NCBI GenBank assembly: GCA_005406025.1
Contig: BGZK01001608.1
Location: 1 to 64,000, forward strand
Reading direction: 5' to 3'
DNA length: 64,000 nucleotides
From: Eumeta japonica
Taxonomy: Eukaryota > Arthropoda > Insecta > Lepidoptera > Psychidae
The notes beneath the pieces are model-generated. The model was given only the letters and a program-made list of their open reading frames with translations. It was not told where the DNA came from and searched no databases. This document shows positions 1,346 to 33,740 of the stretch, one piece after another (the first letter of the stretch is position 1; the number at the start of each line of letters is the position of its first letter). The translations under genes and the position numbers were made by a program.

Positions 1346-1683
1346 AATTGTAATTTATTTTAACTTGCTAACTAATTATTAATAATTATAATTAATTAGG
1401 ATCTTATTATTGTATTGTCTTAATTAAATTATCCTGTAAATAGCACAATAGATAATAATCTAAATTATCAAACTGCTTTGTCTTACCTCATAACCACTGA
1501 CTGATTAACCAATTAACTAATATTCCAGCTGTTACATTATATTGTACTGCCTGTTAATACCGACACTTAATTACATCCAATTACATTTCATCTCAGATCT
1601 TAGACTGCTAATCCCTTGTACGTGTGACTCGTTCGCACATACATAGATCATAATAAAATAGTAAGACAACAAAAATAGCAAAC
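1346..1683 (+). other. 5' UTR of LINE copy B
   Basis: An AT-rich leader between the CCTAA array and the first ORF1 codon. No promoter motif could be identified. An internal promoter is expected for a LINE of this type. Confidence 0.6.
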
Positions 1684-3246
1684 ATGAGCAGGAGAGTCAC
1701 GGAGACCATGCCGCGCCGGGACGAGGTGCCCCCCTTCAAAAGGGGCGCAGAGGCGGGTGGCAGGTCGGAAACTGGCGTCCTGGCAAAGGCAAGGCAGGGA
1801 GCGGCGAAAAAGCTCGCCAAACCAGCAACCCTGACCTTTCCCTTGGAAGCTGGAGAGGGCAGCATCGAGATGCCGAGGCAGACAGAGACACCGGAAGGTG
1901 CCTCCGTCGCGCCTGTAGGGGGTTTTGCGAAGCGGGTCAGTCCCTGCCAACCATCCCCCTCCGCCTTCACCAGCACTCGGCCGCCAATACAGTCGCCGGC
2001 CTCAAGGTCGCAAGAGGGCTCCGCGAAAACCGGGGAGCCCACCGCCGCCAACCGGGCGGCGGTAAAAATAACAGCCCTCACTAGGGAGGCGAGGGACGAG
2101 CTAGAAGCGTTGCGCAATATAAGCAGGGAGGTGAAAACCTCCGTCTGCGAAAAATTGCAGCGCATCGCTGCGCTCGCCCTTAGCCTCGAAGAGTCTCGCT
2201 CCCACCACATTCTGGAGGTGGAACGGGAGAAGACCAAGAGGGCTCGCGACCTTGAGAGGCTGAGAAACGACTGCAAAGACGACGGAGCACCACCTCGACA
2301 GATGTCTGAGGGTGGAAACCGCCGTCAACATGGCGGCCGAGATCAAGAGGACGCAGGACGCCATAGACAGGATGGACATCCCAACAAGTTGGAGGGCTCC
2401 GCAAGACACTGGAGATCAAGCCGACGACCTATGCGGCGGCTGCGGCAAAGCCGAAACTGCAAGCGGCCGCGAAGCCGCAAGTTCCTGGCCCAAAGATCGC
2501 CGCTGCCCACACCCTTATCGTCTCGTCCCGATGCGCCAACCACACCAGCGACCAGGTGGTCAAAGCCATCAGGGAGGTGGTTGATGCAAGGGAAATGGGG
2601 TGGGGTGGATAGAGTGAGGAAGCCAGGAACCAGAAGGTCGTCCTCACATGCGTGTCCGATGACGCTATCAAGCGCATCGAGACGCGCATTAAAACAAATC
2701 TAAAGATCTCCAAGTGTCCAAACCGGAGCCATCGCTACCACTTATCATTATACGGGATGTCCTGAAGGTCAATTCCGACGCACAGATCGTTGAATCGCTG
2801 AAGAGGCAAAATGGGCACACCACCGAAGGTCTCGATTGGGGAAAGGTCGAGGCGCGAGTCCGCTACCGCAGACGTGCGCGAAACCCCTCGAGTGCCATCC
2901 GGTCCTCGAGGTGTCGCCCGCGCTATATACGCGTCTCATAAAACCGGCTACGTATGTGGGGTTGCAGCGGCGACCGGTTTGGGACCAGTCGCCTCTAGTG
3001 CAGTGCTCGCGCTGTCTTGGTTTCGGCCATAGTAAGAAATGGTGCCGAGAACAAAATGACAAGTGCGCGCACTGTGGAGGCGATCATACAGGTCCCACGT
3101 GTCCAGACCGCAAAGCTGCTCAACCCCAAAGTGCATAAACTGCACGAGAGCCGGCTGCGAGGACGTCGCCCATTCGGCATTAGCCAGAATGCGGCGTCCG
3201 CGCCAAATGGGACGCTATAGCGCGGACAAAGGTCGCGTACTGTTAG
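1684..3246 (+). pseudogene. ORF1 (Gag-like RNA-binding protein) of LINE copy B
   Basis: ORF1 proteins of R1-clade LINEs bind the element RNA and direct it to the nucleus and target. The start is ATG 1684 after the AT-rich leader. The N-terminal half is basic and proline-rich; a charged segment around 2070-2290 looks able to form a coiled coil. Near the C-terminus lie zinc knuckles (CSRCLGFGHSKKWC from about 3007, CAHCGGDHTGPTC from about 3067, then CINC near 3137). The last codons, KVAYC then TAG 3244-3246, match the RIAYC ending of ORF1 in copy C, which fixes the end. The frame changes near 2290, 2600-2830 and 3120, so this copy does not encode one continuous protein. Confidence 0.85.
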
Positions 3247-3281
3247 CGGCGGGCGCCTCGGCTGCCCAAAACCGTACTCAC

Positions 3282-6200
3282 ATGGCTGACGGCTTGTCGG
3301 TGGGAAGTGAGGCTGACCACGCATCTCTGCGGTTCATTCAATCCAACCTGCAGCGGAGCAAGCTCGCTACGGCGGAGCTGCTGGTTGGAGCGAGCAGGCG
3401 CAAGATTGCAGTGGCACTAGTCCAGGAGCCCTACGTGGGCAATACTGGCGAGCTCAAGCGGTACTCCGGCTGTAGGGTCATCCAACGGGTGGCCCCGCGT
3501 GCCGGACCCGTAAAAGCCGCCATCCTAATCCTGGACAGTGACGTGGACGTCGAGGAAGATCAAACACTCATCGACGAAAACGTCACTGCTGCTGTAGTCA
3601 CGGCCGGGAACTGCAGAATTGGCGTCGTGTCGGTCTACTTCGAGTGCGACAAGCCGATCGGCCCATACCTCGACCGCGTGAAGTGGGTCTGCTCGAAGCT
3701 CGGGACGAACAAAATCATCCTGGGGGGCGACGTCAACGCATGGAGCGTGTGGTGGGGCAGTGAGCGCGACGACGCGAGAACAGAACTCTGCGACTTCCTC
3801 GACGTGGAGGGTTACATGTACTCAACGAAGGGAATATCCCACGTTCGAAGTATACAGGGGACCGTCTCTTGCGAAGTACGGTGGACGTGACGGCGTGCAG
3901 CTCCGCTCTACTGGATAGAGCGGAGGAATGGCAAGTGGTCCGAGGTAACATCCTCGGACCATAACGCAGTCACGTTCAACGTACGCACCGGGGGCGGTCC
4001 GGACCTGAACCCTTCCGGGGCACACGAATCTACAACACAGCGAAGGCTCGGTGGTCGGAGTTCCTAACAGCGTTTGATAACGCGAAGGAAGAAGGGCTCT
4101 GACTGCCGGGACGGTGGAGGTTGTAGACTCGTGTGACCGACTCGACGAGGTCGTGGATCTGTACACCGAATGCGTCAAGCACGCGTGCGACACTGCCATA
4201 CCGCGAAAGCGCTCGATGCGAAGACCGAAGCTCCCTTGGTGGAGTCCCGAACTAGAGGGGCTGAAAAGGGATGCGAACACCAAAAGCGTCGCATCCGAAA
4301 CGCAGCCTAGCAGACGCCGGTATGTGGTCGAGGAATATGTGAGAGCCAAGGAGGTTTATGAACGGGCAGCAGCGGATGCCCAGACGACGAGCTGGAAACG
4401 GTTTTGCACCGCCCAGGACAGGAGAGCGTATGGGATGGTATCTACAGGGTCATCAGGAACACTGGGAGAAACCGGGAGGATGTTTTACTTATCAACGACT
4501 CGGGGCAGACGTGCAGCCCGAACGAGTCTGCCGTCCTCCTGGCGAATACCTTTTTTCCTGATGACCGTGTCGACACGGATGGTCCGTACCACACGGAACT
4601 AAGAAGACGAACCGACGGAAGTATCCGCCCGCCGGAGGCTTCGGATATCTTGTCCGAGATGGACCCGCCTTTCACTGGGGCTGAAGTGAAAATGGCTCTT
4701 AAGGCATTCAATCCCAAAAAAGCCCCTGGGATTGACGGGTTCACTTCGGATATATGCCAGACTGCCATCTTGCGGGACCTGGGATTGTTCCTAGCCATGG
4801 CGAACAAATGTTTGCAGCTGGGATACTTTCCCCGGGCCTGGAAGGTAGCGACCATTAAGGTGATACCGAAGCCAGGTAAGGACGACTACTCCCGTCCAAA
4901 GTCTTACCGTCCCATAGGCCTTCTCCCCGTAATGGGAAAAACCGTGGAAAGGATGCTCGTCTGGCGCATCCAATGGCATATAATGCCGAAGCTGCAGACG
5001 CGGCAGTATGGTTTCATGCCACAGCGCGGGACGGAGGACTCCTTGTACGATCTGATGACACATCCATAATGAGTTAAATCTCAAAAGAATTATTGTGATG
5101 GTGTCATTGGACATCGAGGGGCCTTCGACAACGCGTGGTGGCCGGCTTTACGAAACCAACTGCTCGTCCACAAATGCCCAGTAAACCTCTACGGCATGGT
5201 AATGGGTTACCTGAGAGACCGGGAGGTGGTGGTCCGATACGCCGGAGGTCCAGGAGGATGACTTCGAAGGGTTGTATACAGGGCTCGATAGCCGGTCCAA
5301 CCTTTGGAATCTCGTCCTTGACTCCCTACTCCGCGAACTCGGGGACCTCGGTGTATACGTTCAGGCGTTCGCGGACGACGTGGTCCTGATGTTTTCCGGA
5401 CAGTCAGCCTCAGCACTGGAGGCGGAGACCAACAGGGCACTAGCCCATGTGAGGGACTGGGGCGATCGAAACAAGTTGAGGTTTGCACCATCGAAAACCA
5501 ACGCGATGGTGCTCACCAGAAAACTGAAGTTCGATGTCCCGGTCATTCGCATGGGCAACACAAAATTGCCCTTGTTGACGAGATCCGCCTCCTAGGTCTT
5601 ACAATAGACAAGGGTTGACTTTCATACCACGTAGCCAAGGCGTGCAAAGGGCTGCCAGCATTTATAAAGGCATAGCCAGGGCGGCCAAGGCTACCTGGGG
5701 GTTGAGTCCGGAGATAGTCAGGACGATATACGTCGCCGCGATAGAGCCGATAGTCACGTACGCTTCGTGCGCCTGGGCCCCGGCAACTAAAAAGCTCGGC
5801 GTGCGGAAAATGCTGGACGCGCTACAGCGCAGTGTAGCATTGAAAGCATGCCGGTCTCCCTCCATTCCGCGCTGATCCTCGCGAGGTTGCTCCCCCTAGA
5901 CATACGGGTGAGGGAAGCAGCCAGACTCTATGAGGTGAAGCGCGGAAGTGAATCGGGGGACGTCTGTGCCGACCGGGAGCTCGAGAGGCCCGTGGACTTC
6001 CGCGAAATGCCGCATCCCGCGCACACTCCCGAACTCGGGTTCGAGAGCGTTGAAGACCTGGATCCATCAACAGTCGACCGTCTCGCCATTGTCGGGCCGC
6101 ACATATATACCGACGGCAGTAAGACCGAAGGTAAAGTAGGTGCGGCCCTGACAGAGTGGCGGGACGAAATGGAATCCAGGAACTCCACGTTCCGGCTCGA

Positions 6201-6979
6201 ATCCTTCTGCACGGTATTCCAGGCAGAGATGTTCGCGCTGCACAGGGCGATAAAGAGGGTCAAGGAAGGCAAGGATCGGCTGGTCAACATCTTCAGCGAC
6301 TCAAAGTCGTCGCTGCAGATGTTGACCGCCCCCAAAACCTACAACCCTCTGGCCCATGCAGCGCGCCAAGACATCAGGGATATCGTTGCGGAAGGCAGGG
6401 AAGTGCGCCTATTCTGGGTGCGGGCACACGCGGGAACCACGGGCAACGAGCGTGCTGATGAGCTCGCCAGGAACGCCGCCCTGAAAAAGAAAACGGCAGC
6501 GGATTACGATCGCTATCCGCTGTCGTACGCCAAAAAGGTGATCAGGGCGGCGAGCCTGGACGAGTGGCAACAGCGTTACACCGAGGGAGGCACTGGTGAA
6601 ATAACCAAGTGCTTCTTTCCCCGAGTGGAAGGGGCGTATAGGGTCCTCTCGCGATTCACGATCACGCCCCCGATAGCGCAAACCCTAACGGGACACGGCG
6701 GATTCGCTCAGTACCTGAACAGGTTTAAGCTGAAGGATTCGCCGTACTGCGCGTGCGCCCGATAAGGTCCAAGATGTACTGCACGTTCTCGAAGAATGCC
6801 CAATCTTCGGGAGAGAGCGTGCAGAGACCGAGGCGGGCACCGGCGTCGTAGTCGCGAGGCATGGTTTTCCGGCTCTCCTTGACGACGAAACAAATAGAAA
6901 AACATTTTTGGAATTTTGCGAGCGGGTCACGCGAAGGTGCAATAAAATGAACGGCTCTAATATGGCATACAATGAATAA
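3282..6979 (+). pseudogene. ORF2 polyprotein of LINE copy B: endonuclease, RT, RNase H, CCHC
   Basis: The enzyme that nicks the target and copies the element RNA at the cut. Starting at ATG 3282, an APE-type endonuclease shows IQSNLQRSK, VQEPYVG and GGDVNAWSVWWG (about 3335-3760). The reverse transcriptase follows, with KKAPGIDGF near 4715 and the catalytic FADD at 5368-5379. RNase H has YTDGSK at 6106, FQAEMFAL near 6220, FSDSKSSL near 6292 and HAGTTGNERADELA near 6427, covering all the usual acidic residues. A C-x-C...H...C finger (CAC, then HVLEEC) spans the frameshift near 6760. ORF2 ends at TAA 6977-6979. Frameshifts near 3890, 4400, 5070-5270, 5590 and 6760 break it. No helicase follows. 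Confidence 0.92.
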
Positions 6980-7320
6980 AATAAACCCAAATGGTGACTT
7001 TAACACGATAAATCGTGACATAAATAAACAGCCAATGGTTGGCGGGAAGACAAAGACAAATAGTGCTAAATGTAATGTAAATATAAAATAAAATGTATAG
7101 AGATAAATATGTGTATTATAAAAAAAATATATATATATATATAAAAATTAAATAAATAAATAAAATTATTAAGATAAGTTATTAGCACCTTTATGCACAT
7201 TCCAGCCAACCAAAAAGGCTGAATGAAAGTGGATGTAAGAAACTGATAAAAAGCATACAAGGGCTGTCGCCAACATGCGACAGGGGCAAAAGGATCAAAA
7301 CAAAAAAAAAAAAAAAAAAA
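6980..7320 (+). other. 3' UTR and poly(A) of LINE copy B
   Basis: AT-rich 3' region with a run of alternating AT near 7120-7143 and a small hairpin at about 7264-7281 (arms TGTCGC and GCGACA). It ends in poly(A) abutting CCTAA. The hairpin could help the RT recognise its template, but this is speculation. Confidence 0.7.
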
Positions 7321-7337
7321 CCTAACCTAACCTAACC
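7321..7337 (+). repeat. Telomeric repeat, about 3.4 units of CCTAA
   Basis: A short CCTAA run between the poly(A) of copy B and the 5' end of copy C. It shows that the two elements were inserted one beside the other in a single telomere array. Confidence 0.95.
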
Positions 7338-8553
7338 AGTTACCTCTCAGGAACCAAGCAACACGCGTTCGTATCGCTCTCCGCGATTAAATTATGTAAA
7401 TTACAATTTCCCGCGAAAATAAACTGTCCGACAACAGTGTATAAGTGTGCAAGTGTCTTAGTGATCGAATATCGGTGTCAACTGGTGAGAACCTGACGCT
7501 ATCCTGGAAATTAAAAATAAAGTTTTCGAAAGTGCCTAAAGATGAAAAGCCGTTCCGGATATCGGTAAAGTGTCGTGCTTAGTACACAATAAAGTGCACA
7601 CCACAGGCCGCCACATATCCAACAGGAACAACATAGCAGGAAGAACTCAGGAAACTAAATATTTCCCCGAAAGAAAAATAAAAATTTCTCATCTCTAAAG
7701 AAGACCCCTATTCTTAACTTAAGTGACATATATCACACGGTGACCTAGTAGACATTTGTCACCAAAGATTGGCTGAGTCAGAAGTTAAATGTAAACAGGG
7801 CTTCATTTGAAAATAGAAACCGATATACATATCACCAAAACGCGCGAAAACGAAAAACCGAGACATAAAATATAAAACACGCTGAAAATAGGTGCGACCT
7901 GAAAAATTTCCTCGCAGATCATAAAGTGCACAAATACGATAAGTGGACTGAACGGATTATATTCCAAAATAGTGCTCTTTGTCAAAAGAAGTTTTTTCGA
8001 AAACACCTAAAGTCCTACAAATCAGAATAGGGTCCTAAAAGGTGAAAAATAATTTCCCGCTGACAAAGCACCACATATCGCGGCCACGACCGAGCCAGTA
8101 CACGTGCACTGAAAGTTGCAAATCTGCGTCATTGGGGACGGCGACCGCATTCCTTCATAAGGCGACCTCTCGGAATTCGGTCAGAACGTGCGTCATTAGG
8201 CACGTGTACACGAGTTTACAAAGTCTAACAAAATCGGACTAACAATATAACAACCATTGCCCAAAAAATTTGGATTAACACTTACACATACAAAATAATA
8301 ACAGAACAAAATAAAATTCTAAACAACTCCTTAAGTCTCATCAAAGCCAGTAAAAGGAAAAAGAGACAAATAGTTGAGTGCAGAGGATTTTAAAAATTGT
8401 TCAAAAACCAATTTAACTAAACAAAAACAGCTATAATAGATACGAAACGTAACAGTTGCAACTAACAAATCTGCTTGCTGTGCAGTAAAGGTAACCACCG
8501 CTACACACTCTAAAATTATTAAAAATACTTAAATAAAAAAAATAAAATAAAAA
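7338..8553 (+). other. 5' UTR of LINE copy C
   Basis: A 1.2-kb A-rich leader without a recognisable protein. It begins directly after CCTAACC. It shares no obvious similarity with the short leader of copy B. Confidence 0.65.
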
Positions 8554-10569
8554 ATGTCGACAAACAGTCAAAGCCGCACCGAAGAAGTTGCAGCATCTCA
8601 CATCAAGAAGGCACAAAACCCCGGCTGAGAACTTTACAGTCGAGGATGGTGAAACGCCCATTGAGTGCAAACCGACTTGAGTGAAGCGGGAAGCGTAAAA
8701 GCGATCCCAACCCGCAAAACAGTACGCAGGTCGAACTCAGACGGTGCGCAACACAAAAGTCAAAGAATGGGAGCAAGCAAGCTGCCCCTCGTCACCACAA
8801 GAAATAGAAGAAGGTTCGATTCCCTCCCCACCATCTCAGCCCTCTCTGAAAGTAAAATAGAAGAGTTGAGCATGTTACCGAGAACGAAAAGGGAAGGGGG
8901 CGGAGATGGACCTGGCGACTAGGGAAGCAAACGAACTGCTTCTGAAAGGCAAAGAGGCCCTGGAGAGTGCAGGCAACATGAAGCGAGAATGCAAAAGCAT
9001 CGCAGCGGGTGCCTGCAATCACTCTACGAGATCGTACTCGCTCTTTCGGACTCCCGTTCTAGACATAAATACAATCTAGAGGCCGAACGCACCAAACACG
9101 CACAAGAACTGGTGCGAATAGAAAGGCCCACAACAAAGATTTGACGAATGTCGTTAAAACGCTGACAGAAGAACTCAGCCAGGCGCGAAGACGTCCGAAA
9201 AGTCTGGACGAAACAAAATCAATAAGGGACTGGCTGGGTTATGAAACTGAGGAAAACAAGGAGACAAACAAAGACGTAAAGAAGCGACTACTAGATATAG
9301 AAACCTCTCTAAGAGAAATAAAGATGGAGAAATCCAAAACAAAAGTCGAAAGCGTTGCACCGTCCACTAAGAAAATGGAAACGGACATAAAGACGCTTTC
9401 GGCACAATTGGATGAACTCAGAAACAAATGGGGGGCTCTAAAGAACGAAACTAGCAAAACGCTTGAAACGTCCAACAAAACTCTCCACGAAATAAAAACC
9501 TCCAAAACAACTGTCCGCTAACGAAAAGGTAGAAGAACAACTAAAAGCCGTTCAATCGGCAGTCGAAAATGTCAGCGAACGTCTTAACAGTGCCAGGGAT
9601 CCAGTCGTGCAAATCGATCTGCATGAGCAATTGCAGCCGCTGCAAGAAAAATGGAGGCAATGTCATCAGCAATGAAGACAATGAGGGATAAAGAGCCCAG
9701 ACACCGCCAACGCCGGGAAGGAATCTCGAAAGAGAACTGGCGGAAGCTCATAAAAGCTCACAAATCCCAAACCCTCATACGCAGAAGCGGCTGCGAAATC
9801 ACCAACCCACAACCGAATCACACGTTGATAGTCTCCTCAAAGGACAAAACCCATACGGGAGAACACGTCCTTCAAATAATTAGAGGGCTATCGACACAAA
9901 GAAATCAGGTGCGAAAGTGGAAAGGGTCCGAAAAGCCAGGAACCAAAGGTGATACTGAAATGCAGCACGAAAGAGGACATGGAGGCCATCCAGAACAAAA
10001 TGAGGTCCCGTAAAGAAATAAAAGTGGAAGCGGCCAAAGCGGCGAACCCCCTGCTCATCATGAAAGGGGTAATGGCCTACCACAAGGACGCGGACATTAT
10101 TGAAAACGTTCTGGCTCAAAACAAGCACTTGGTTAAAGACATAAACTTGAAAGAAGTGACGATACGGGTCAGATATAGGAAGAGGGCACGCAACCAACTA
10201 CAGTGCCACCCAGTACTAGAACTAAGCCCAAGTGTCCACAAAAGATTCCTAGAAGCAGGAAAATTGTATATCGACCTCCAAAAAGTCGCAGTATACGATC
10301 AATCCCCTCTGGTCCAGTGTGCTAAATGCCTAGGTTTTGGGCACACGAAAGCTGTTTGCGGGGAAAAAACTGCGACATGTAGTTATTGCGCGGACAAAAC
10401 TCATGAATGGGAAAAATGCCCGCGTAGAAAACAAAACGAGGAACCGAAATGCAAGAACTGCTGGGAGAACGGGATCAAAACTGAGGCCAACCACGAGGCC
10501 TTTAGCAACAAATGCAAGGTGAGGCAGAAATGGGATGAAATAGCCCGATCGCGCATTGCCTATTGCTAA
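8554..10569 (+). pseudogene. ORF1 (Gag-like) of LINE copy C
   Basis: The start is ATG 8554, preceded by AAAA. A long charged region rich in K, E, T and S (about 9060-9700) is likely to form a coiled coil. The C-terminal part (about 9950-10569) is in one frame and contains three zinc knuckles: CAKCLGFGHTKAVC, CSYCADKTHEWEKC and a third starting CKNC. It ends RIAYC, TAA 10567-10569, as in copy B. Frameshifts near 8625, 8920, 9130, 9520 and 9650-9950 interrupt the N-terminal two thirds. The stop lies 10 bases before the first ORF2 ATG, a spacing compatible with stop-and-reinitiate translation. Confidence 0.85.
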
Positions 10570-10579
10570 GGGCAACGAC

Positions 10580-13500
10580 ATGGAAACCGGCGACGCTCCC
10601 ACAGAAGTGGACACAAAAACGATTCTGATGATTCAAGCGAATCTCCAGAGATCCAAAGTAGCGACTGCAGAGTTACTCCAGCTGGCGACAGAGAAAGGGA
10701 TATCGATAGCCTTGGTTCAGGAACCCTATGTAGGAAACCAAGGCATCCTAAAACAAAATCCCGGCACCAAAGTAATACAGTGCACTGTCGGCCGCCAGAA
10801 ACCAGTGAAAGCGGCGATAATTGTTTTCGGAGACAAAGTAGAGGTTTTACATGACCCACAACTAGTCACGGAAACCGAATCGGCCGTCCTATTAAAATAT
10901 AGGCAGAATGAAGCTGGGTATCATCTCGATCTACTTCGAAGGAGACGAGGACATCGAGCCATATATCATCAGAACGAAAAGGCTTGCAAAAATCTGGGAA
11001 CAGAAAATCTGATCATAGCTGGCGACATAAATGCGTGGAGCCACTGGTGGGAAGCCAGAGAGAAGACAGGAGGGCCAAGCTTACAGAGATTTCTTGGACG
11101 AAATGGGCTTCCACATCCTCAACACAGGAAGCACTCCCACCTTCGAGACCTATAGGGGCGATAGAATCTGCAGTAGTATAGTAGACGTGACCGCATGCAG
11201 TTCACCTAATAGGTAGAGTCGAGAATGGAGAGTGGACAGAACGGCAACAACATCGGACCACAACGCGATCGTGTTCAACCTGCGTCTAAGCGGGCCCATA
11301 AAACCCATGGAGCCGATAACCACGCGCAGATACAACACGAACAAAGCAGACTGGACTGAATTCTGTCTACAGCTCAGAAATACTCTTCAGAAGTACGGGA
11401 TTGCCGAAAAGGTCGAACGAACGAAGAGACCTGAGGATTTGGAAGCGAACAGCAGAGAATACATAGCTGCTATCCAGGAAGTCTGTGAAGAAATATTTCC
11501 GAAGATAGGACAGAGGAAAACAAAAGCGAATCCCCCCTGGTGGACAGCGGAACTAAGCGCTCTAAAAAAAGACGTCTTGCGCAAAAGAGGAGAATCCGCA
11601 ACGCAGCCCCACGAGAAAAAGGCCGTAATCGAAGATTACCACGGCCAAGACGATATACACTCAGAAAGCCGAAATAGCACAGACAGAAAGCTGGAAAGAG
11701 TACTGCACGACCAGGACAAGGAAAGCATGTGGGACAAAGTATACAGAGTAATAAGGAATAAAAAGGTAGACTGCCAGACACATTGCTGAGAAACTCTGAG
11801 GGCAAAACACTGAGCCCACACGAATCGGCAAAACTTCTCGCGAACACATTTTACCCCGACGACTCTGTATCGACGGATATGCCATTCCACATCCGAACGA
11901 GAGAAAGGATAGAAGACAAACCTGTAGAAGGCCTAAGACTGTCGGAAGATGATCCACCGTTCACGATGGTGGAACTAAAGGCAGTCCTGAGAGAGTTAAA
12001 TCCGAAAAGGCTCCGGGACCAGACGGCCTGACGGCAGATATCTGCATAGCGGCGATAGAGAGCGAGATGGAAGTATTTCTAGCGATAGCCAATAAATGCC
12101 TGGAATTGGCTTACTTCCCCACACTGGAAGACCGCACATGTCGTCATAATACCGAAACCTGGAAAGAGGATTACACCCTCCCTAAATCCTACAGGCCGAT
12201 AGGTCTACTACCGATCCCGGAAAGATAGTGGAAAAATTAATGATAGGCCGAATCCAATGGCACATGCTTCCTTCACTCAGTCCTAAGCAATACGGGTTCA
12301 TGCCACAGCGAAGCACGGAAGATGCCCTCTACGACCTCGTTAATCATGTCAAAAGGAGATAGAAAGCAAAAAGCGGTACTCCTTATTTCACTTGATATAG
12401 AGGGCGCCTTCGACAACGCATGGTGGCCAGCACTAAAACACAGCTCATCGACAAAAATGCCCGGGTAATCTATACCAAATGGCATGTTCGTACCTCACAC
12501 AGCGGAAAATAACGGTCAATTACGCAAGAGAAACGGTCACAAAATCCACAAACAAAGGTTGTGTCCAAGGATCCATATGTGGACCGACCTTCTGGAATAT
12601 AATCATCGACTCGCTTCTTCAAAGACTGACCGACGCAAAGGTACACTGTCAGGCATTTGCCGACGATGTAGTCCTTGCTTTCTCGAGTGAATCGAGCTCC
12701 ACCATAGAAAACGCCGCCAACGAAGCTCAAGCTATGGTGCTAACGAAAAAGCTGAAATTTCAAAACCCCACCATACAGATGGCGGGCTCCCAAATCAACC
12801 TAGTCGAAGAGATAAAGGTGCTCGGCCTAATAATAGACACGAGGCTAAACTTCCGGTCACATGTAGCGGCAGTCTGTAAAAGTCTATCGAAATCTACAAG
12901 CTACTAACCTGCAGCGCAAAAGTAACATGGGGTCTGAACAGCGAAATAATAAGGATCATATACACAGCAGTGATCGAACCCATCATGATGTACGCATCGA
13001 ACGCATGGGCCCCGGCGACCGAGTTAGAAATGATCAGATCGGCTCTAAGCTCGCTTCAAAGAGGTTTTGCCATCAAGATCTGTAGAGCCTACAGAACGGT
13101 CTCACTCACCTCAGCCATGATCCTTGCAGGCTTACTTCCACTGGACCTCAGAATACGGGAAGCGGAGGCGCTGTACAAAGCAAAAAAAGGATTATCGATG
13201 GACTATCTTCCACCAGGAAAAGAGCTAGAAAAGGACATTGCAAACACTGAGAGGCCACACCCCGCAAAAGCAATGTCCATAGAATACGAGCTCGTAGACG
13301 AATCGGATCCCGATCCCCTTGGAAAAATTGCCGGCCCGCAAATCTACACGGACGGCAGCAAAATTAACGGAAGGGTCGGAGCAGCGATCACCTGGTGGAC
13401 GAACGATACAGAATCGGAATACCAAACTCTCAGTCTACATCCTTCATGCTCAGTATATCAAGCGGAAATGTACGCCCTGTATAGAGCAGTCGCAATGGTT

Positions 13501-14180
13501 AAAGCCAGTCGAGAGAAAGTGGTGAACATTTTGAGTGACTCTAGATCATCACTGGAACTCCTGAGCAACCCGAGAACGGGACATCCATTAGCACACGCAA
13601 TAAGGAAAGTACAAGAAACGCTAACGCTGAAGGAAAAGAAATACGTTTCTACTGGCTGAGAGCACACGTGGGCACAAAGGGCAACGAAAGAGCAGATGAA
13701 CTGGCAAAATCGCTGCCCAAAGGCTGATGCCGACTATGATTACGAGAAAATTCCCCTATCCTGGGTAAAAAGCAAGATAAGGGAGGAGACGATTCTGAAA
13801 TGGCAAACACGATACGACTCCTCCCAGACCGGTGCAATAACGAAAACATTCTTTCCTGACGCAAAGAAAGCATACGCAACGATCAGGAAATTGAAGCCAA
13901 CACCGGTCCAGACACAAATATTCACAGGACACACGGGAATAGCGGAGTACCTGCACAGATTCAAACTCTTACAGAGCCCGAGTTGCGAGTGCGACGCCGA
14001 TAAAATCGAATCAGTATGGCACATAATCCTTGAATGCCCCAGGTATGAAGTTGCACGCTACGATCTCGAACACAAAATCGAGACAAAGCTGGAAAAACAA
14101 AAAATGCACGAAATAATGGAGAACCCCGAAAAAAGAGTGGAATTCTTGTCATTCGCAGAGAAAGCCTTCCGGGAAGCCAC
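10580..14180 (+). pseudogene. ORF2 core of LINE copy C: endonuclease, RT, RNase H, CCHC
   Basis: The first ATG after ORF1 is at 10580. The APE-type endonuclease shows IQANLQRSK, VQEPYVG and AGDINAWSHWW (10625-11055) and SDHNAI near 11253. The reverse transcriptase has GPDGLTAD near 12015, LISLDIEGAFDNAWW near 12385 and catalytic FADD at 12656-12667. RNase H has YTDGSK near 13344, YQAEMYAL near 13455, LSDSRSSL near 13530 and HVGTKGNERADELA near 13665. The finger is CECDAD...H...C at about 13985-14040. The domain order equals that of copy B, but here the protein does not end after the finger. Indels near 11150, 11780, 12010, 12340-12480 and 13650 break the frame. Confidence 0.92.
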
Positions 14181-15164
14181 ATCCAGACATAGATCCATGA
14201 ACCGAAAGCGCAATGAAGAAACACCTCCAACTGCGCCGACTTCAGCCCCAACACAAAAACCCCAAGAGAATCCCGAAAACGAAGCTACAACACTGCGCAC
14301 GACGACAACGGAAAGAATGTTACGTTGCGCAGAAACAGCAGGAAAGCCTGGGATACGAACAAGGGAGTGGCACTGTTCATGGACGAAAACACGGAAAGGC
14401 TAGGAATAGGCTTTGGAAGCCCATGGGGAAGAGCAGCGTTTCACTTTCGCCAGGACTTGCCAACCTCATAAACGGCAGTACCAGTAAAACCATCCTAAAA
14501 GGAAAACCTTTGATTCGCTAGAACAACTAGTAATCGAAGGTGAATCCTGCAGAATGGTACGGACCAGAAACAAGATCGTCCTACTATTCACATGGACCGA
14601 GGATACACCGTTTATCCAGGCAAGTAAAGTACTACATAAACTAAGCGAAAGTGAACAGGCAACACCCAGTGATAAGCATAGACTCTATGTCAGTCGGCTA
14701 CGAAAAGGCAATGTCGAAGATTATCTTGGAAGCATAGCAGCCTCCGAAAACACAAGATCGTAATGTATGAAGATCGAGGAGAAAATCTCAGTTATCTTCA
14801 CAAATACGATCCGGCATGCTCAACGACACCGATTGACAGCTGGGGACATCCTGTCAAGGACCCAGAAGAAATGAGCGGCTCGGAGCGTCTCCGAAAGCAA
14901 ATCAAGCTGAAAAGGAGACAAAAACCGCGAAGCGAAAGAGCTAGCCCGCGAGCAACGCTCGAGACCGGTAAAAACTGGAAAACTTCTTTCGTGCATTTAA
15001 TGCAGGAATAGCCACAAAGCTTAAGGCATTCACCAGCAAAAGCGAGTGTTCGACAACAGAGGACAAGGAAAAGCCTCGACATCTAAAAGATAACGAACGA
15101 TTCACCAAAGTCTAGCCCGAAACCCACAAAGGCCGACCTAGGAGAGGTCAAACCTCCCGTCGTT
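14181..15164 (+). other. Unclassified ORF2 segment between CCHC finger and helicase
   Basis: Open in pieces in all three frames, with residues that look like real protein rather than leader: a P/T/N-rich stretch (about 14215-14300), then GVALFMDEN and GIGFGSPWGRAAF (about 14368-14440), then an open run of about 84 residues, 14508-14762, and another 14763-15010. Copy B has no counterpart. I do not recognise a family. It could be the N-terminal part of the captured viral-type protein or a linker that arose in the LINE. Confidence 0.6.
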
Positions 15165-16438
15165 ATGCCTGTCGAGAATCCGAAAGACCACATGAGGAAC
15201 GCCTTCCTCGAGTTCGCTGCACTAACAATAGCGATACAAGATGTCACCCAAACAATGTGTAAAAACATTCTGAACATATACAAGAAAGGGGACATCGAAC
15301 AGCTAAAACGAAAACTCGAGGAAAACGAAGGCACCATATACAACAATAAGTCGTCCCAATATATACTCGGAGACGCAAGACAAAACATGGCGGCCTACAA
15401 TGACACATGCGGACTCGTATATCTCGACGAACAGGCAACGAAAATCACAGGCAAGGCCAAATATAAAACTCCAGAAAACGATCCAATAGTGGTAATGACC
15501 AGAGACACAAAGGTAGCCTTGGAAGAAAGAATCCTGAGAACGATGAGAAAACTTTCAAAGGAAAACGACCAAGACTACTCGGAAACATTTACCGACTGGG
15601 AAACACCGAAAATTACATGGATCAACGGAGTACCTGGATGTGGGAAAACAACGTGGATCGTTCAAGAATTTGACAATAAAGGGATTGCATAGTCACCGCG
15701 ACCATTGAAGCAGCAAAGACCTAAAGCGAAAACTGGCCAACAGAATAGGAGCCGAAGCAACGACCAGAGTGCGCACGATGGCTTCTATATTAGTGAACGG
15801 GTTCAAAGAACACACACACAACCGTCTCCTAATCGACGAGGCTATGATGAACCACTTTGGCGCAATAATAACGGCCGCTCTGCTGGCCAAGGCCAAGGAA
15901 CTGCTGCTTATCGGCGACATAAATCAAATCCCTCACATAGACAGACACAATGTCTTTCCGATGAGCTATGAAAAGCCAAATGCTGTAGCAAAGTCTCCCG
16001 AGAACTGCTACGATCTTACAGAAACCCATGGATGTGGCATATGCCCTCAACGAAATTTATAGCGGCATATACTCCACACAGGAAGGGACCCGATCATTGA
16101 CGATGGATGGTTACGACATAAACAAACTCTCCATATCACTACCTCAAACGCTCTACCTGGCCCACACACAAGCTGGCAAAACAGAGCTAAAAGCCATGGG
16201 ATGCGGACAAGGTAAAGAATCGAGAGTGTTAACTATCCATGAAGCGCAGGGTCTAGCCTCAAAAAATGTGGTAATAGTAAGAACAGCGTCGAAGAAAGCA
16301 GAAATTTACAACAGCATTCAACACGCGGTCGTAGCAATCACGCGTCACACAGAAAATTGTATTTACCTTACGGTAAATTGCAGTGACGCGATAGGAGACT
16401 CATACAAAGGGCTAACAATGCTACATCGGAACGAATAA
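15165..16438 (+). pseudogene. Superfamily 1 RNA-virus-like NTPase/helicase domain of LINE copy C
   Basis: SF1 helicases use NTP to unwind RNA or DNA. Motifs in order: Walker A GVPGCGKTT at 15627-15653; motif Ia region IVTATIEAA just after; DEAMM (motif II) from 15835; GDINQIP (motif III) at 15913-15933; LTETHGC (motif IV-like) near 16015; TIHEAQG (motif V) at 16232-16252; VAITRHT (motif VI) at 16331-16351. This is the pattern of the alpha-like plus-strand RNA virus helicases, including tobamoviruses. The stop is TAA 16436-16438, followed by the LINE 3' UTR, so the domain is the C-terminal end of ORF2 or a separate downstream frame. Frame changes near 15690 and 16025-16060 interrupt it; the key residues are all present. 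Confidence 0.92.
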
Positions 16439-16960
16439 TAGAGTACAACGCCAAGATGGCAATAAGATCCCGGGACATAAACTCGGTCAGAGAAATAACC
16501 AAACACCGAAGAAAGCCGGAACAGTACTGACCGAGTAAATAAAACACCGGATCAAAGCAAAGAAAGGCGTCAATTTAGAAACGAAGCGGACAAAAAATGG
16601 CGTTCCACACACAATGACATCCCAATGCGCGGTGTCAGAGCGGACGGGTTGCCCGCTCCCTAAAATGGTTGAGCTGGACAATGGCTGACCGTCCTGTCGT
16701 ACTCGTGAACGGGTGCCGTGCAACAGGGACAAGGACCGCCATCACGAAGAAAACAGTGAAAAGTGTTTAAAACAATAAACAAATAAAAATTTAATAAAGT
16801 GAAAGATATATAAATTGTGAGAGTGACAGATAAGTGGTTGCAGAACAGTACAGCAAGTAAACTAACACAACATTGACAAATGAACAATGCCAGTAACAAA
16901 GTTGCGGAACATAAGAGTCTGCAGAATGTAATGTAAAATAATAATAAAAAAAAAAAAAAA
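16439..16960 (+). other. 3' UTR and poly(A) of LINE copy C
   Basis: About 0.5 kb, nearly the same as 774-1273 in copy A. It ends in a poly(A) run and then CCTTACCCAACCTAACC. The shared 3' UTR shows that copies A and C belong to one family. Confidence 0.85.
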
Positions 16961-16990
16961 CCTTACCCAACCTAACCTAACCTAACCTAA
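16961..16990 (+). repeat. Degenerate telomeric repeat, about six CCTAA units
   Basis: CCTTA, CCCAA, then four perfect units. It is the innermost telomere run next to an intact LINE and directly abuts the satellite. Confidence 0.92.
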
Positions 16991-19900
16991 CAACAAATTC
17001 TTCGTATTTGCTAATCGCGTCGAATGCTGCACATACAGAGATCCTCGCCCTAAGCGTTCCAGAATCATTGAAGTTCAAAGAACTGGAGGTTTTTTATTAT
17101 GTCTAGAAAACAGTTCGTCGCATCTATAATAACAAACACATTAAATAAGAAAGTTTAATGTTCGGTCAATGGTTTTACAGTGATGAAAATCGGCAAGAGC
17201 GTCCGAAAGACATTGAGATGAAACTAATTTCATGGAATGAAAAATGTTTGTCTAGGATAACTCTAAAACGTTCTTTGCTATCCGTTTGCGATCTACTCAA
17301 ATTTTCTGTATTAGCAAATTGAGTCAAATGCTGCACATGCAGAGATCCTCGCCATACGCGTTCCGGAGTCATTTAAGTTCAAAGAAAAGAAGGTTTTTTT
17401 TTATTATGTCTAGAAAACAGATCGTCGCATCTATACTAACAAACACATTAAAAAAGAAAGTTCAATGTTCAGTCGATGGTTTTACAGTGATAAAATCGGC
17501 AAGAGCGGTCAAAAGACATTGAGATGAAACTAATTTCATGGAATTAAAAATTTTGTTTAGGAAAACTCTAAGACTTCTCTTGCTATTCGTTTATGATCTT
17601 CTACATATTTTTCGTATTTGCAAATTGCGTCAAATGCTGCACATGCAGAGATACTCGCCCTAAGCGTCCCGGAATCATTGAAGTTCAAAGAATAGAAGGT
17701 TTTTCATTATGCCTAGAAAACAGTTCGTCGCATCTATACTAACAAACACATTAAATACGAAAGTATAATGTTCGGTCGATGGTTTTACAGTGATGAAAAT
17801 CGGCAAGAGCGTTCGAATGACACAGCGATGAAACTAATTTCATGGAATGAAAAAAGTTTGTCTAGCATAACTCTAAGACGTTCTTCGCGATCCGTTTATG
17901 ATCTTCTACAAATTTTTCGTATTTGCAAATCGCGTCGAATGCTGCACATGCAGGGATCCTTGACCTAAGCGTTCCGAAATCATTGCAGTTCGAAGAAAAG
18001 AAGGTATTTTATTATGCCTAGAAAACAGTTCGTGGCATCTATACTAACAAACAAATAAAATAAGAAAGTTCAATGTTCTTTCGATGGATTTACACTAATG
18101 AAAATCGGCAGAAGCGTCCGAAAGACATTGCGATGAAACTAATTTCATGGAATGAAAAAAGTTTGTGTGAGATAACTCTAAGACGTTCTTTGCGATCCGT
18201 TTATGACCTTCTACAAATTTTTCGTATTTGCAAATCGCAGCAAATGCTGCACATGCAGAGATGCTCACCCTAAGCGATTCGGAATCATTGAAGTTTAAAG
18301 AACAGAAGGTTTTATTATGTCTAGAAAACAGTTCGTCGCATCTATACTAACAAACACATTAACTAAGAAAGTTCAATATTCGGTCGATGGTTTTACTCGG
18401 AAAAGTTTGCAATGAAATCGTCGTTTCGAAGACATTGCGATGAAACTAATTTCATGGAATGAAAAAAGTTTGTCTAGGATAACTCTAAGACGTTCTTTGC
18501 GATCCGTTTATGATCTTCTACAAATTTTTTGTATTTGCAAATTGTTTCGAATGCTGCACATAGAGAGATCCTCGCCCTAAGCGTTCCAGAATCATTGAAG
18601 TTCAAAGAACTGAAGGTTTTTTATTATGTCTAGAAAACATTTCGTCGCATCTATACTAACAAACACATTAAATAAGAAACTTTAATATTCGGTCAATGGT
18701 TTTACAGAGATGAAAATCGGCAAATGCGTTCGAAAGACATTGCGATGAAACTAATTTCATGGAATGAAAAAAGTTTGTCTAGGATAACTCTAAAACGTTC
18801 TTTGCTATCCGTTTGCGATCTACTCAAATTTTCTGTATTAGGAAATTGAGTCAAATGCTGCACATGCAGAGATCCTCGCCATACGCGTTCCGGAGTCATT
18901 TAAGTTCAAAGAAAAGAAGGTTTTTATTATGTCTAGAAAACAGTTCGTCGCATCTATACTAACAAACGCATTAAAAAAGAAAGTTCAATGTTCAGTCGAT
19001 GGTTTTACAGTGATGAAAATCGGCAAGAGCGTCCGAAAGACATTGCGATGAAACTAATTTCATGGAATGAAAAAAGTTTGTCTAGGATAACTCTAAGACG
19101 TTCTTTGCGATCCGTTTATGATCTTCTACAATTTTTTTGTATTTGCAAATTGTTTCGAATGCTGCACATACAGAGATCCTCGCCCTAAGCGTTCCGAAAT
19201 TATTGCAGTTCGAAGAAAAGAAGGTATTTTATTACGCCTAGAAAACAGTTCGTGGCATCTATACTAACAAACAAATAAAATAAGAAAGTTCAATGTTCTT
19301 TCGATGGATTTACAGTGATGAAAATCGGCAGAAGCGTCCGAAAGACATTGCGATGAAACTAATTTCATGGAATGAAAAAAGTTTGTCTAGCATAACTCTA
19401 AGACGTTCTTCGCGATCCGTTTATGATCTTCTACAAATTTTTCGTATTTGCAAATCGCGTCGAATGCTGCACATGCAGGGATCCTTGACCTAAGCGTTCC
19501 GAAATCATTGCAGTTCGAAGAAAAGAAGGTATTTTATTATGCCTAGAAAACAGTTCGTGGCATCTATACTAACAAACAAATAAAATAAGAAAGTTCAATG
19601 TTCTTTCGATGGATTTACACTAATGAAAATCGGCAGAAGCGTCCGAAAGACATTGCGATGAAACTAATTTCATGGAATGAAAAAAGTTTGTGTGAGATAA
19701 CTCTAAGACGTTCTTTGCGATCCGTTTATGATCTTCTACAAATTTTTCGTATTTGCAAATCGCAGCAAATGCTGCACATGCAGAGATGCTCACCCTAAGC
19801 GATTCGGAATCATTGAAGTTTAAAGAACAGAAGGTTTTTTATTATGCCTAGAAAACAGTTCGTCGCATCTATACTAACAAACACATTAACTAAGAAAGTT

Positions 19901-21483
19901 CAATATTCGGTCGATGGTTTTACAGTAATAAAAATCTGCAAGAGCGTCCGAAAGACATTGCGATGAAACTAATTTCATGGAATTAAAAAAGTTTCTCAAG
20001 GATAACTCTATGACGTTCCTTGCTATCCCTTTATGATCTTCTACAATTTTTTTGTATTTGCAAATCGAGTCAAATGCTACACATGCAGAGATCCTCGCCC
20101 TAAGCGTTCCAGAATAATTGAAGTTCAAAGAACTGGAGGTTTTTTATTATGTCTAGAAAACAGTTCGTCGCATCTATACTAACAAACACATTAAAAAGGA
20201 AAGTTCAATGTTCTTTCGATGGATTTACACTAATGAAAATCGGCAGAAGCGTCCGAAAGACATTGCGATGAAACTAATTTCATGGAATGAAAAAAGTTTG
20301 TGTGAGATAACTCTAAGACGTTCTTTGCGATCCGTTTATGATCTTCTACAAATTTTTCGTATTTGCAAATCTCGTCGAATGCTGAACATACAGAGATCCT
20401 CGCCCTAAGCGTTCCAGAATAATTGAAGTACAAAGAACTGGAGGTTTTTTATTATGTCTAGAAAACAGTTCCTCGCATCTATACTAACAAACACATCAAA
20501 TAAAAAAGTATATTGTTCGGTCGATGGTTTTACAGTGATGAAAATCGGCAAGAGCGTCCGAAAGACATTGCGATGAAACTAATTTCATGGAATTAAAAAA
20601 GTTTGTCTAGCATAACTCTAAGACGTTCTTCGCGATCCGTTTATGATCTTCTACAAATTCTTCGTATTTGCAAATCACGTCGAATGCTGCACATACAGAG
20701 ATCCTCGCCCTAAGCGTTCCAGAATCATTGAAGTTCAAAGAACTGGAGGTTTTTTATTATGTCTATAAAACAGTTCGTCGCATCTATACTAACAAACACA
20801 TTAAATAAAAAAGTATATTGTTCGGTTGTTGGTTTTACAGTGATGAAAATCGGCACGAACGTCAGAAAGACATTGCGATGAAACTAATTTCATGGAATGA
20901 AAAAAGTTTGTCTAGCATAACTCTAAGACGTTCTTCGTGATCCGTATATGATCTTCTACAATTTTTTTGTATTTGCAAATCGCGTCGAATGCTGCACATG
21001 CAGAGATCCTCGCCTTAAGCGTTCCGGAATCATTGAAGTTTAAAGAACAGAAAGTTTTTTATAATGTCTAGAAAAGATTTCGATGCATCTATACTAACAA
21101 ACACATTAAATAAGAAAGTATTATGTTCGGTCGATGGTTTTACAGTGATGGAAATCAGCAAGAGCGGTCGAAAGATATTGCGATGAAACTAATTTCATGG
21201 AATGAAAAAAGTTTGTCTAGGATAACTCTAAGACGTTCTTTGCGATCCGCTTATGATCTTCTACAAATTTTTCGTATTTGCATATCGCGTAGAATGCTGC
21301 ACATGCAGAGATCCTCGCCCTAAGCGTTACGGAATCATTGCAGTTCAAAGAACAGAAGGTCTTTTATTATGTCTAAAAAAGAGTTCGTCGCATCTATACT
21401 AACAAACACATTAAAAAAGAAAGTACAATGTTCGGTCGATGGTTTTACGGTGATGAAAATCGGCAAGAGCGGTCGAAAGACAT
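16991..21483 (+). repeat. Subtelomeric satellite, about 15 monomers of 305 bp
   Basis: The landmark ACTAACAAACA recurs at about 17131, 17437, 17740, 18045, 18348, 18657, 18958, 19263, 19568, 19873, 20178, 20483, 20788, 21093 and 21397, giving a period of 301-309 bases and mostly 305. Monomers differ by a few to perhaps 15 percent. They are arranged head to tail. A block of about five monomers (roughly 17170-18395) is repeated at 18697-19920, an offset of about 1525 bases. Each monomer holds one or two short open frames, described under findings. Confidence 0.96.
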
Positions 21484-21545
21484 TATTAATTAATTATAAA
21501 TATATATAGAATAGAATATAAATATTATTAAGAGATTGAAAATTG
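21484..21545. other. AT-rich spacer at satellite turn-around
   Basis: A 62-base stretch of almost pure A and T that separates the direct array from a single inverted monomer. Confidence 0.8.
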
Positions 21546-31200: not shown

Positions 31201-33740
31201 ATGTTAGCTGACTCGATCTAATCATCTTTTCAAACTTAAATTTTCTTCAGACGCGTGTTTCGTAAAATGTAGCGCAATTAGGCGAAGTAGAAGCTGCATC
31301 GTGTTGATCAACGTTACAAAATACCTACTATAAAGTGCAACAAGATGCCTGTTTGGGTTTCCTAAACGAGTTCTAGACTAACATAGCAGTACTGAGGTCT
31401 ATTCTTGCGAGTAGCGTTCAACGACGCTGACTCGATCAAATCCGAGCGTTAAAGTTAAATCTGTTTTAAACCTATTTTTCGTATTATGTAAAGCATTTAA
31501 AGCGACGTAGGAACCACATCATGTATTTTCAAAATCGTACAATACCTACTATCGTTCCTTCGAACGATAGGCTACCTGTTGAAATTTCCTAAATTATTTC
31601 GAGACTTAAATCGCAGTACGAAGGTTTCTTTTTATGCACAGTTTTCAGCGATGATGACCCGATTTTATCATACTTTAAAAATCAAATCTATTTCAAATCA
31701 ATTTTTCGTATCGTGCACTACAATAAATGGGATAAAGAAGCTACATTTTGTTTTTAACGTCATATAATACTTAATAGAAAGAGTGATAGGCTTCCTGTTT
31801 CGATTTCATAAGCTGATTCGAGACATAAATTTCACTAATAAGATATTTTATTGTAAGTAGCATTCAGCGATGCTCACTCGATCTAATCATAGCTTTCAAG
31901 TCAAATCAGCTTTGAACCCATTTTTCAAACAAGCTCCAGGCTTAAGTCGTAGTACAAAGGTATTTTATTGTGAGCAGCATACTGCGATTTTGACACGATC
32001 TAATCATAGCTTGAAAGTCAAATCCATCTGACTCCATCTCATTATCAAAGTGACATCTACTTTAAACGCATTTTGTTTATTATAGTGTGCATTTAAAGTA
32101 GGGTGAAAACTACATCATGTTTTTAACATCATGCAATACCTTTTGAAGTCAGTAACAAGCCGCCTGTTAACATGTCCCAAGAAATTTCGAAACTTCTAAA
32201 GCAGTACTTTGCAGTATCTGTGATGCTGACGCCATTTCACGATCACTCCAAAGTCAAATTGCCTTTAAACATATTTTGCTTATTATACAGTACATTTGAA
32301 GAAGGATGAAAACTACATCATATTTTTAACATCATGCATTACCTTTTGAAGTCAGTAACAAGCCGCCTGTTAACATGTCTCAAGAAATTTCGAAACTTCT
32401 AAAGCAGTACTTTGCAGTATCTGTGATGCTGACGCCATTTCACGATCACTCCAAAGTCAAATTGCCTTTAAACGCATTTTGTTTATTGTACAGTACATTT
32501 GAAGAAGAGTGAAAACTACATCATATTTTTAACATCATGCAATACTTTTTGAAGACAGTAACAAGCCGCCTGTTAGCATGTCCCAAGAAATTTCGAAACT
32601 TCTAAAGCAGTACTTTGCAGTATCTGTGATGCTGACGCCATTTCACGATCACTCCAAAGTCAAATTGCCTTTAAACATATTTTGCTTATTATACAGTACA
32701 TTTGAAGAAGGATGAAAACTACATCATATTTTTAACATCATGCATTACCTTTTGAAGTCAGTAACAAGCCGCCTGTTAACATGTCTCAAGAAATTTCGAA
32801 ACTTCTAAAGCAGTACTTTGCAGTATCTGTGATGCTGACGCCATTTCACGATCACTCCAAAGTCAAATTGCCTTTAAACATATTTTGCTTATTATACAGT
32901 ACATTTGAAGAAGGATGAAAACTACATCATATTTTAACATCATGCATTACCTTTGAAGTCAGTAACAAGCCGCCTGTTAACATGTCTCAAGAAATTTCGA
33001 AACTTCTAAAGCAGTACTTTGCAGTATCTGTGATGCTGACGCCATTTCACGATCACTCCAAAGTCAAATTGCCTTTAAACGCATTTTGTTTATTGTACAG
33101 TACATTTGAAGAAGAGTGAAAACTACATCATATTTTAACATCATGCAATACTTTTGAAGACAGTAACAAGCCGCCTGTTAGCATGTCCCAAGAAATTTCG
33201 AAACTTCTAAAGCAGTACTTTGCAGTATCTGCGATGCTGATGCAATCTCATGATCGCTTCGAAGTCAAATTTCCTTTAAACACATTTTTTGTATTGTACA
33301 ATACATTTATGGCAAAGTAGTAAACATATTTAGGCGGTTATCCGTGAAAACCATAGTATTATACAAATAATACTTTTTATCAACAGAGATAGGTTGCCTC
33401 TTAGTATGTCCCGAGTGATTTCGATACCTCTAAAGTAGTACTAACGTCTTTCCTTACTTTCAGTATCACAGATACTGACTCCGTCTCATAATCGACGCAA
33501 AGTCAAATCTGCTTACACGCATTTTTCTTATTATTCAGTACAGTAAAACCGAAGTAAAAGCTAAATTCTGTTTTCCGAGATCATATAATACCAATTTAAA
33601 TAGTAATACGCTGTCTGTTATGTCCCAAACGAGTTTAAAATCTTAATTACAGTATCAAGGATTTTTTTGTGTGCAGCGTATTCAGTGATGCTGCCTCCAT
33701 CTCATATTTTGCAGTGACTCCTGTTCTGAAAAACACAATT
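31200..33740 (+). repeat. Tandem array with homogeneous 203-bp core
   Basis: GCAGTATCTG recurs at 32211, 32414, 32617, 32820, 33021 and 33222, with spacings of 203, 203, 203, 201 and 201. Units there are nearly identical. On both sides (31200-32030 and 33290-33740) lie clearly related but diverged and longer units, recognised by the same order of short landmarks (TGACTCGATC, TACATCATG, CCTGTT, TTCGAGAC). Confidence 0.92.

Follow-up and report, generated by a model that had tools for sequence, protein, structure and literature searches.

A helicase-bearing TRAS retrotransposon in telomeric repeats of the bagworm moth Eumeta japonica and its probable captured viral helicase module

Organization of the locus

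We analyzed bases 1–64000 of contig C1597 (127,180 bp) of the bagworm moth Eumeta japonica (Psychidae), a 64,000-bp stretch hereafter called the window, and searched the genome of this species as 701.7 Mb in 5067 contigs. The published Eumeta assembly has 12,720 contigs and was built from nanopore reads with Illumina polishing (PMC6488591). Within the window lies a whole long interspersed nuclear element (LINE) of the TRAS type, termed copy B, which unites the first open reading frame (ORF1), an endonuclease (EN), a reverse transcriptase (RT), an RNase H, a long linker and all motifs of a superfamily 1 (SF1) helicase. With CCTAA repeats at the 5′ end, and an A-run followed by CCTAA at the 3′ end, the originally predicted bounds, 7338–16960, are correct. 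The features of copy B and its flanks are listed below.

7321–7337, + strand: (CCTAA)3 telomeric repeat, the 5′ target flank of copy B, ending in ...CCTAACC (read from the sequence)
7338–16960, + strand: copy B, whole helicase-bearing TRAS LINE; starts with AGTTACC at 7338; A-run at 16946–16960
9880–10566, + strand: C-terminal part of ORF1 with CCHC knuckles (CAKCLGFGHTKAVC); from the ORF list, knuckles by eye
10544–11155, + strand: EN, TRAS1 EN-like (PDB 1wdu, E 1e-21; Exo_endo_phos, E 2e-4, under the curated cut-off)
11644–12907, + strand: RT in several frames (RVT_1, E 1e-12; tblastn with P0005; split RT matches)
12880–13659, + strand: end of the RT region and RNase H (RNase_H, E 9e-5)
13660–14403, + strand: CCHC zinc-binding region, start of the linker (zf-RVT, E 0.058; collinear with P0005)
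14358–14828, + strand: linker domain L1 (tblastn with seven distinct homologue fragments, best E 7e-27, three frames)
15110–15626, + strand: linker domain L2, viral helicase N-terminal domain, approximate bounds (collinear with P0005; L2 profile; model of a homologue)
15627–15653, + strand: SF1 motif I, GVPGCGKTT, frame 3
15709–16062, + strand: helicase motifs Ia–III (DEAMM, GDINQIP), frame 1 (Viral_helicase1, E 7e-10)
15989–16438, + strand: helicase motifs IV–VI (TIHEAQG, VAITRH), frame 2 (Viral_helicase1, E 1e-11)
16439–16945, + strand: 3′ untranslated region (UTR) of helicase-TRAS (40 scored matches in its own genome)
16961–16991, + strand: degenerate telomeric CCTAA, 3′ flank of copy B (read from the sequence)

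The EN of copy B is of the TRAS1 type, the TRAS1 EN structure 1wdu being its sole PDB match at E 0.01. The RNase H match scored 23.1 bits, below the Pfam curated cut-off of 25.8, and the CCHC pattern behind it (CEC..H..C) is visible by eye. TRAS1 EN cuts between T and A of TTAGGG and between C and T of CCCTAA (PMC2868851), and the TRAS insertion point within CCTAA is between C and T (PMC7265360), in agreement with the junctions seen here. Copy B resembles TRAS1 of Bombyx mori in EN sequence, in C/T insertion within CCTAA and in telomeric location, whereas no SF1 helicase (SF1H)-encoding LINE was found in B. mori (PMC4686597). Placement with TRAS in an RT tree has been published for elements related to helicase-TRAS (PMC4686597). 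Judged by its sequence, copy B is a helicase-bearing TRAS LINE (R1 clade, SF1H-TRAS) of the bagworm moth, which forms part of the joint explanation given below.

The Pfam profile Viral_helicase1 matched copy B at 15709–16059 (39.6 bits), at 15989–16435 (45.4 bits) and, with motif I, at 15600–15689 (E 2e-4, 22.1 bits), each above the cut-off of 21, which rules out a chance occurrence of the motifs; scored inside the whole 201-aa ORF, the motif I region reached 19.3 bits, under that cut-off. Among solved structures, the tomato mosaic virus (ToMV) helicase is the closest (3vkw, E 3e-4 and 2e-5), and the three best protein matches of the helicase piece come from E. japonica itself (identities of 97%, 96% and 84% across 81% of that piece). 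Motifs of the alphavirus-like SF1 kind stand in the right order in the window as well as in the homologues. The original prediction had called the helicase complete, and this stands for the motifs and their order but not for the reading frame, which is broken between motif I, motifs Ia–III and motifs IV–VI. Decay and sequencing error are indistinguishable in copy B because the assembly is nanopore-based with Illumina polishing, a point of weight given the numerous small indels in these elements. Given that about 60 bp of the RT (within 12437–12907) are missing relative to the copies on contig C2601, copy B may be inactive regardless of whether its frameshifts are errors.

The helicase as part of ORF2

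An open protein of Spodoptera frugiperda, P0005 (1775 aa), contains RVT, RNase H and Viral_helicase1 and is collinear by tblastn with window positions 11286–16476, from the EN/RT side to the helicase end with the linker included, the window matching in several frames. A search with the helicase region of P0005 returned 66 proteins including P0005, 54 of which bear both RVT_1 and Viral_helicase1; 13 lepidopteran genera are named among the sources. In Eumeta, 30 copies (copy B among them) were read upstream of the shared 3′ UTR: none lacks all of the five helicase motifs looked for, and 24 have the full set. The RT–helicase junction thus recurs both in Spodoptera and in 30/30 Eumeta copies, and the helicase and the R1-clade LINE form one unit as predicted; the helicase is not a separate insertion with ends of its own, and the junction is not confined to one copy. 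The order and spacing in the window, together with the open P0005, give a C-terminal helicase in ORF2 behind a spacer of more than 300 aa, copy B itself being frame-shifted.

Motif residues were counted in 58 homologues picked by helicase likeness (P0005–P0062, five of them listing no RVT_1). GK of motif I is present in 57/58, DE of motif II in 58/58, G, D and Q of motif III in 58/58 each, and R of motif VI in 56/58. Column conservation across 49 proteins (drawn from P0005–P0060, 1300–2100 aa, P0021 excluded) gave block means of 0.62–0.76 in the helicase core, near those of the RT (0.65–0.86). The row sets A1 and A2 held 43 and 14 proteins, respectively. Synonymous and non-synonymous counts between open copies yielded no clean signal, some frames probably ending in shifted sequence. 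With the reserve that a choice of rows by helicase likeness favours intact proteins, the helicase ATPase looks to be kept as a working enzyme.

One of the 54 proteins, P0064 (1759 aa), places its SF1 helicase ahead of the RT, with motif V at 695 and ADD at 1473; this is the reverse of the TRAS order, and P0064 is perhaps the Jockey-type fusion. According to the abstract of PMC5563155, Jockey-family LINEs also carry a virus-derived SF1 helicase, but in ORF1 and of independent origin.

Extent and origin of the viral module

Helicase-bearing TRAS elements of Lepidoptera were already published in 2015 and 2017 (PMC4686597; PMC5563155), and the 2015 precedent named in the original prediction, namely insect R1-clade LINEs with a viral-type SF1 helicase, was borne out (PMC4686597). 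The Eumeta element agrees with these SF1H-encoding TRAS elements, so far as described there, in its R1-clade TRAS affiliation, in its virus-like SF1 helicase at the ORF2 C-terminus and in its spacer of more than 300 aa. It differs in that the Eumeta (Psychidae) copies lie in telomeric tandem arrays, and in that the spacer, reported to be without similarity, here consists partly of the viral helicase N-terminal domain and a second conserved domain.

The first of these two domains is L2. The viral protein nearest to the helicase of Spodoptera P0005 is the polyprotein of Wufeng shrew martellivirus 1 (P0063, 42%), and the L2 profile matches P0063 directly upstream of its helicase. In addition, a predicted structure of residues 554–1004 of the homologue P0029 aligns to residues 689–1112 of ToMV. 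A tobamovirus-type N-terminal domain precedes motif I in the homologues, with which the window is collinear. Both sequence and predicted fold match L2, the part of the linker just ahead of the helicase, to the N-terminal domain of the viral helicase, which makes the captured piece larger than had been reported; as far as the compared papers go, this larger module is new. P0063 is a virus replicase with methyltransferase, FtsJ and RNA-dependent RNA polymerase domains, and L1 has no match there. Compared with the helicase of the ToMV replicase (3vkw, 3wrx/3wry), the Eumeta helicase shows about 25% identity and is fused to a LINE ORF2.

The prediction of a captured, tobamovirus-like helicase was upheld for virus derivation and not for the kind of virus: the nearest relatives in print (PMC5563155) are invertebrate virga-like viruses rather than tobamoviruses, and here the nearest is Wufeng shrew martellivirus 1. 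In a helicase tree of 31 rows, the 24 TRAS rows grouped together (83/86 support) in an open fork whose bootstrap had not converged; most virus branches are very long, so the tree does not point to a donor. A scan of viral contigs for the helicase piece found four pattern stretches, none of which was confirmed.

L1 is a conserved linker domain of helicase-TRAS that was seen only together with the helicase, in a search covering proteins of about 976–3106 aa (0.55–1.75 times the query), a size range that leaves room for L1 in short proteins lacking the helicase. Its fold as predicted in a homologue may resemble that of a macrodomain. At the sequence level, L1 has no Pfam or PDB match: Macro of Pfam matched none of 14 members at E 0.1, the PDB profile search gave no macrodomain, and hhalign against a YmdB profile gave a probability of 0.2; L1 therefore lacks the sequence match expected of a macrodomain. 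Foldseek against the PDB returned no row under E 0.001, the top rows being an ARF GTPase and a phage terminase, with a coronavirus macrodomain fifth (E 0.012). Against viral structures it returned two rows under 0.001, the first unnamed and the second a phage terminase. No match bearing on the origin of L1 was found in eight proteins by hmmsearch (seven virus-like ones and P0064), nor in seven of these by hhalign. That the LINE captured a three-part viral replicase cassette (a macrodomain-like X domain, the helicase N-terminal domain and the SF1 core), kept since early Lepidoptera and used in building chromosome ends, is a doubtful extension of these findings.

Telomere residence in Eumeta

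A search of the genome with the 3′ UTR gave 67 candidates, 40 of which were scored (30 obtained as loci and 10 fetched separately), with copy B among the 40 and copy A, another helicase-TRAS at the start of the window, not among them. The A-run or the bare 3′ end runs directly into CCTAA repeats in 35/40 scored copies, a figure taken from reading the flanks; the script tally was 34 with at least two CCTAA units, three with one and three with none, L021 being counted by coincidence. In 12 of the 40, a further helicase-TRAS follows the repeats, and every one of these 5′ ends comes behind CCTAACC plus 0–2 bases (L034 by eye). Insertion between C and T of CCTAA, followed by poly(A) and CCTAA, is thus seen at the window junctions, at 12/12 5′ ends and at these 35/40 3′ ends.

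Twenty contigs reach 100 kb or more and carry 25 copies, 22 of which are no farther than 40 kb from a contig end. All of these 22, on 18 contigs, face inward; the remaining three copies are on C18 (one) and C46 (two). Fifteen copies are on shorter contigs that are uninformative for orientation, 6/15 facing inward by the nearest end. On contig C2601 (48 kb), the end of one helicase-TRAS precedes a head-to-tail row of five more; the five are separated by CCTAA spacers of 48, 48, 48 and 63 bp, and their EN is 98.5%–99.5% identical to that of copy B. Contig C124 mixes helicase-bearing and helicase-less TRAS. The predicted residence in telomere DNA is supported by the scored 3′ ends, by the placement on long contigs and by the tandem array on C2601.

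As a separate observation, C124 at about 10569–11258 (locus L095) has a 3′ end resembling that of the helicase-less element (73%) behind a short piece of helicase, possibly a chimera.

A 2019 paper (PMC6338049) states that helicase-TRAS are not to be found near telomeric repeats; for this moth, that statement does not hold. The main texts of PMC4686597 and PMC5563155 contain "telomer" once each, in their reference lists, and no TTAGG. Among the titles and abstract openings searched, mostly without subscription journals, none was found to report helicase-TRAS in telomeres, and a report elsewhere is possible. The kind of element is already known; its telomere residence contradicts a published statement.

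Other features of the window

Upstream of copy B, the window contains the following features.

1–1262, + strand: copy A, a second helicase-TRAS of which the contig start leaves the 3′ part, with the helicase in several frames and the 3′ UTR (read from the sequence)
1263–1273, + strand: A-run of copy A (read from the sequence)
1274–1345, + strand: (CCTAA)n telomeric repeat tract (read from the sequence)
1346–7301, + strand: middle element, TRAS-type LINE without helicase; A-run at 7302–7320

In copy A, the helicase is matched by tblastn at 42–728, and DNA identity is 93% for the helicase (HEL) and 91% for the 3′ UTR. The EN of the middle element matches TRAS1 (1wdu, E 2e-40), and its RT and RNase H were also matched; tblastn with Spodoptera P0005 found no helicase in it. 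Copy A, the middle element and copy B all run in the same direction, 3′ end inward. Directly inside this telomere/TRAS array, about 15 copies of a 305-bp satellite occupy 16993–21484, a candidate subtelomeric satellite. Further inward, a 203-bp tandem repeat is present in six copies with 94% matches (32060–33308), and two stretches, 44747–45036 and 49216–49511, are duplicated about 4.47 kb apart (88% and 96% identity).

Proposed model and alternatives

The best explanation as a whole, which we hold to be probable, is that of a telomere-targeting helicase-TRAS that forms arrays at chromosome ends and carries a captured viral helicase module in ORF2. Target-primed reverse transcription is established for this LINE family. 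The EN would nick the CCTAA/TTAGG telomere repeats at the TRAS site, whereupon the RT would copy the element RNA into the gap by this reaction, and copies accumulate in head-to-tail arrays at chromosome ends, 3′ ends pointing inward. Behind the RNase H, the ORF2 protein carries the viral helicase module (N-terminal domain and SF1 core), the ATPase residues of which are kept in many Lepidoptera. Within that protein, the helicase may act in cis as an ATP-driven motor that clears structure in the element RNA, an RNA:DNA hybrid or repeat DNA while insertion proceeds; this is the likeliest role for it, at somewhat less than an even chance.

Several observations weigh against this model or parts of it. 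Copy B is frame-shifted, with its helicase spread over three reading frames, and all five helicase motifs share one open frame in just 5/30 Eumeta copies, for which assembly errors may account in part. Picking proteins by helicase likeness, as for the residue counts, favours intact ones. Five of the 40 scored 3′ ends do not run into the repeats: a telomeric position is not evident for L021, L024 and L046, L022 abuts the start of another element and L045 sits at a contig end. The near-equal spacers on C2601 suggest that recombination, besides insertion, builds the arrays. Finally, helicase-less TRAS occupy the same telomeres (the middle element; C124), so the helicase is not required for telomere insertion as such and would be an aid, not a need.

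Two alternatives concern the structures themselves. Repeated changes of frame across the helicase region might suggest a separate insertion beside a TRAS element, but the collinear open ORF2 protein P0005, both domains in 54/66 homologues and the 30/30 copies with helicase motifs ahead of a common 3′ UTR led us to reject this idea; visual inspection of 14300–15640, between the zinc-binding region and motif I, likewise showed neither poly(A) nor a telomere repeat, and the idea retains practically no probability. The telomeric arrays, for their part, could be an artefact of contigs breaking at any repeat, given a nanopore draft, contig ends that gather repeats and the near-equal spacers of C2601. 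Random breaks would leave both orientations, yet 22/22 copies near the ends of long contigs, 18 in number, face inward, and the junction sequences fit the TRAS cut site, which makes an artefact very improbable.

Two further alternatives concern the role of the helicase-TRAS. The helicase might act in trans to suppress RNA silencing, by small interfering or Piwi-interacting RNA (piRNA), shielding the element RNA with no unwinding role at the target. This was proposed in PMC4686597, which notes that TRAS1 is piRNA-regulated; however, the reported suppression is weak and in plants, and in most homologues the helicase remains joined to ORF2 and has its ATPase motifs intact, which suppression alone need not require. 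We favour the cis motor because the helicase has kept both its fusion and its ATPase residues, and regard suppression as rather unlikely while still a serious competitor. Alternatively, the host might keep the copies as an antiviral archive or defence, with little selection on them as mobile elements, as proposed in PMC6338049, which calls them functionally specialized given their absence near telomere repeats. That ground fails, with 35/40 scored copies in CCTAA, a TRAS1-like EN and TRAS junctions, and we consider such an archive improbable.

Implications

In summary, this study corrects a published premise, since absence from telomeres had been used to call SF1H-TRAS specialized for antiviral roles. 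Eumeta SF1H-TRAS are telomere residents in tandem arrays, and thus an element-level role at telomeres needs to be considered. The redefined module, comprising the N-terminal domain and the core and perhaps one more domain, defines the right constructs for functional tests of the helicase. If the three-part cassette were true, an element bearing pieces of a viral replicase would be building part of the moth telomere.

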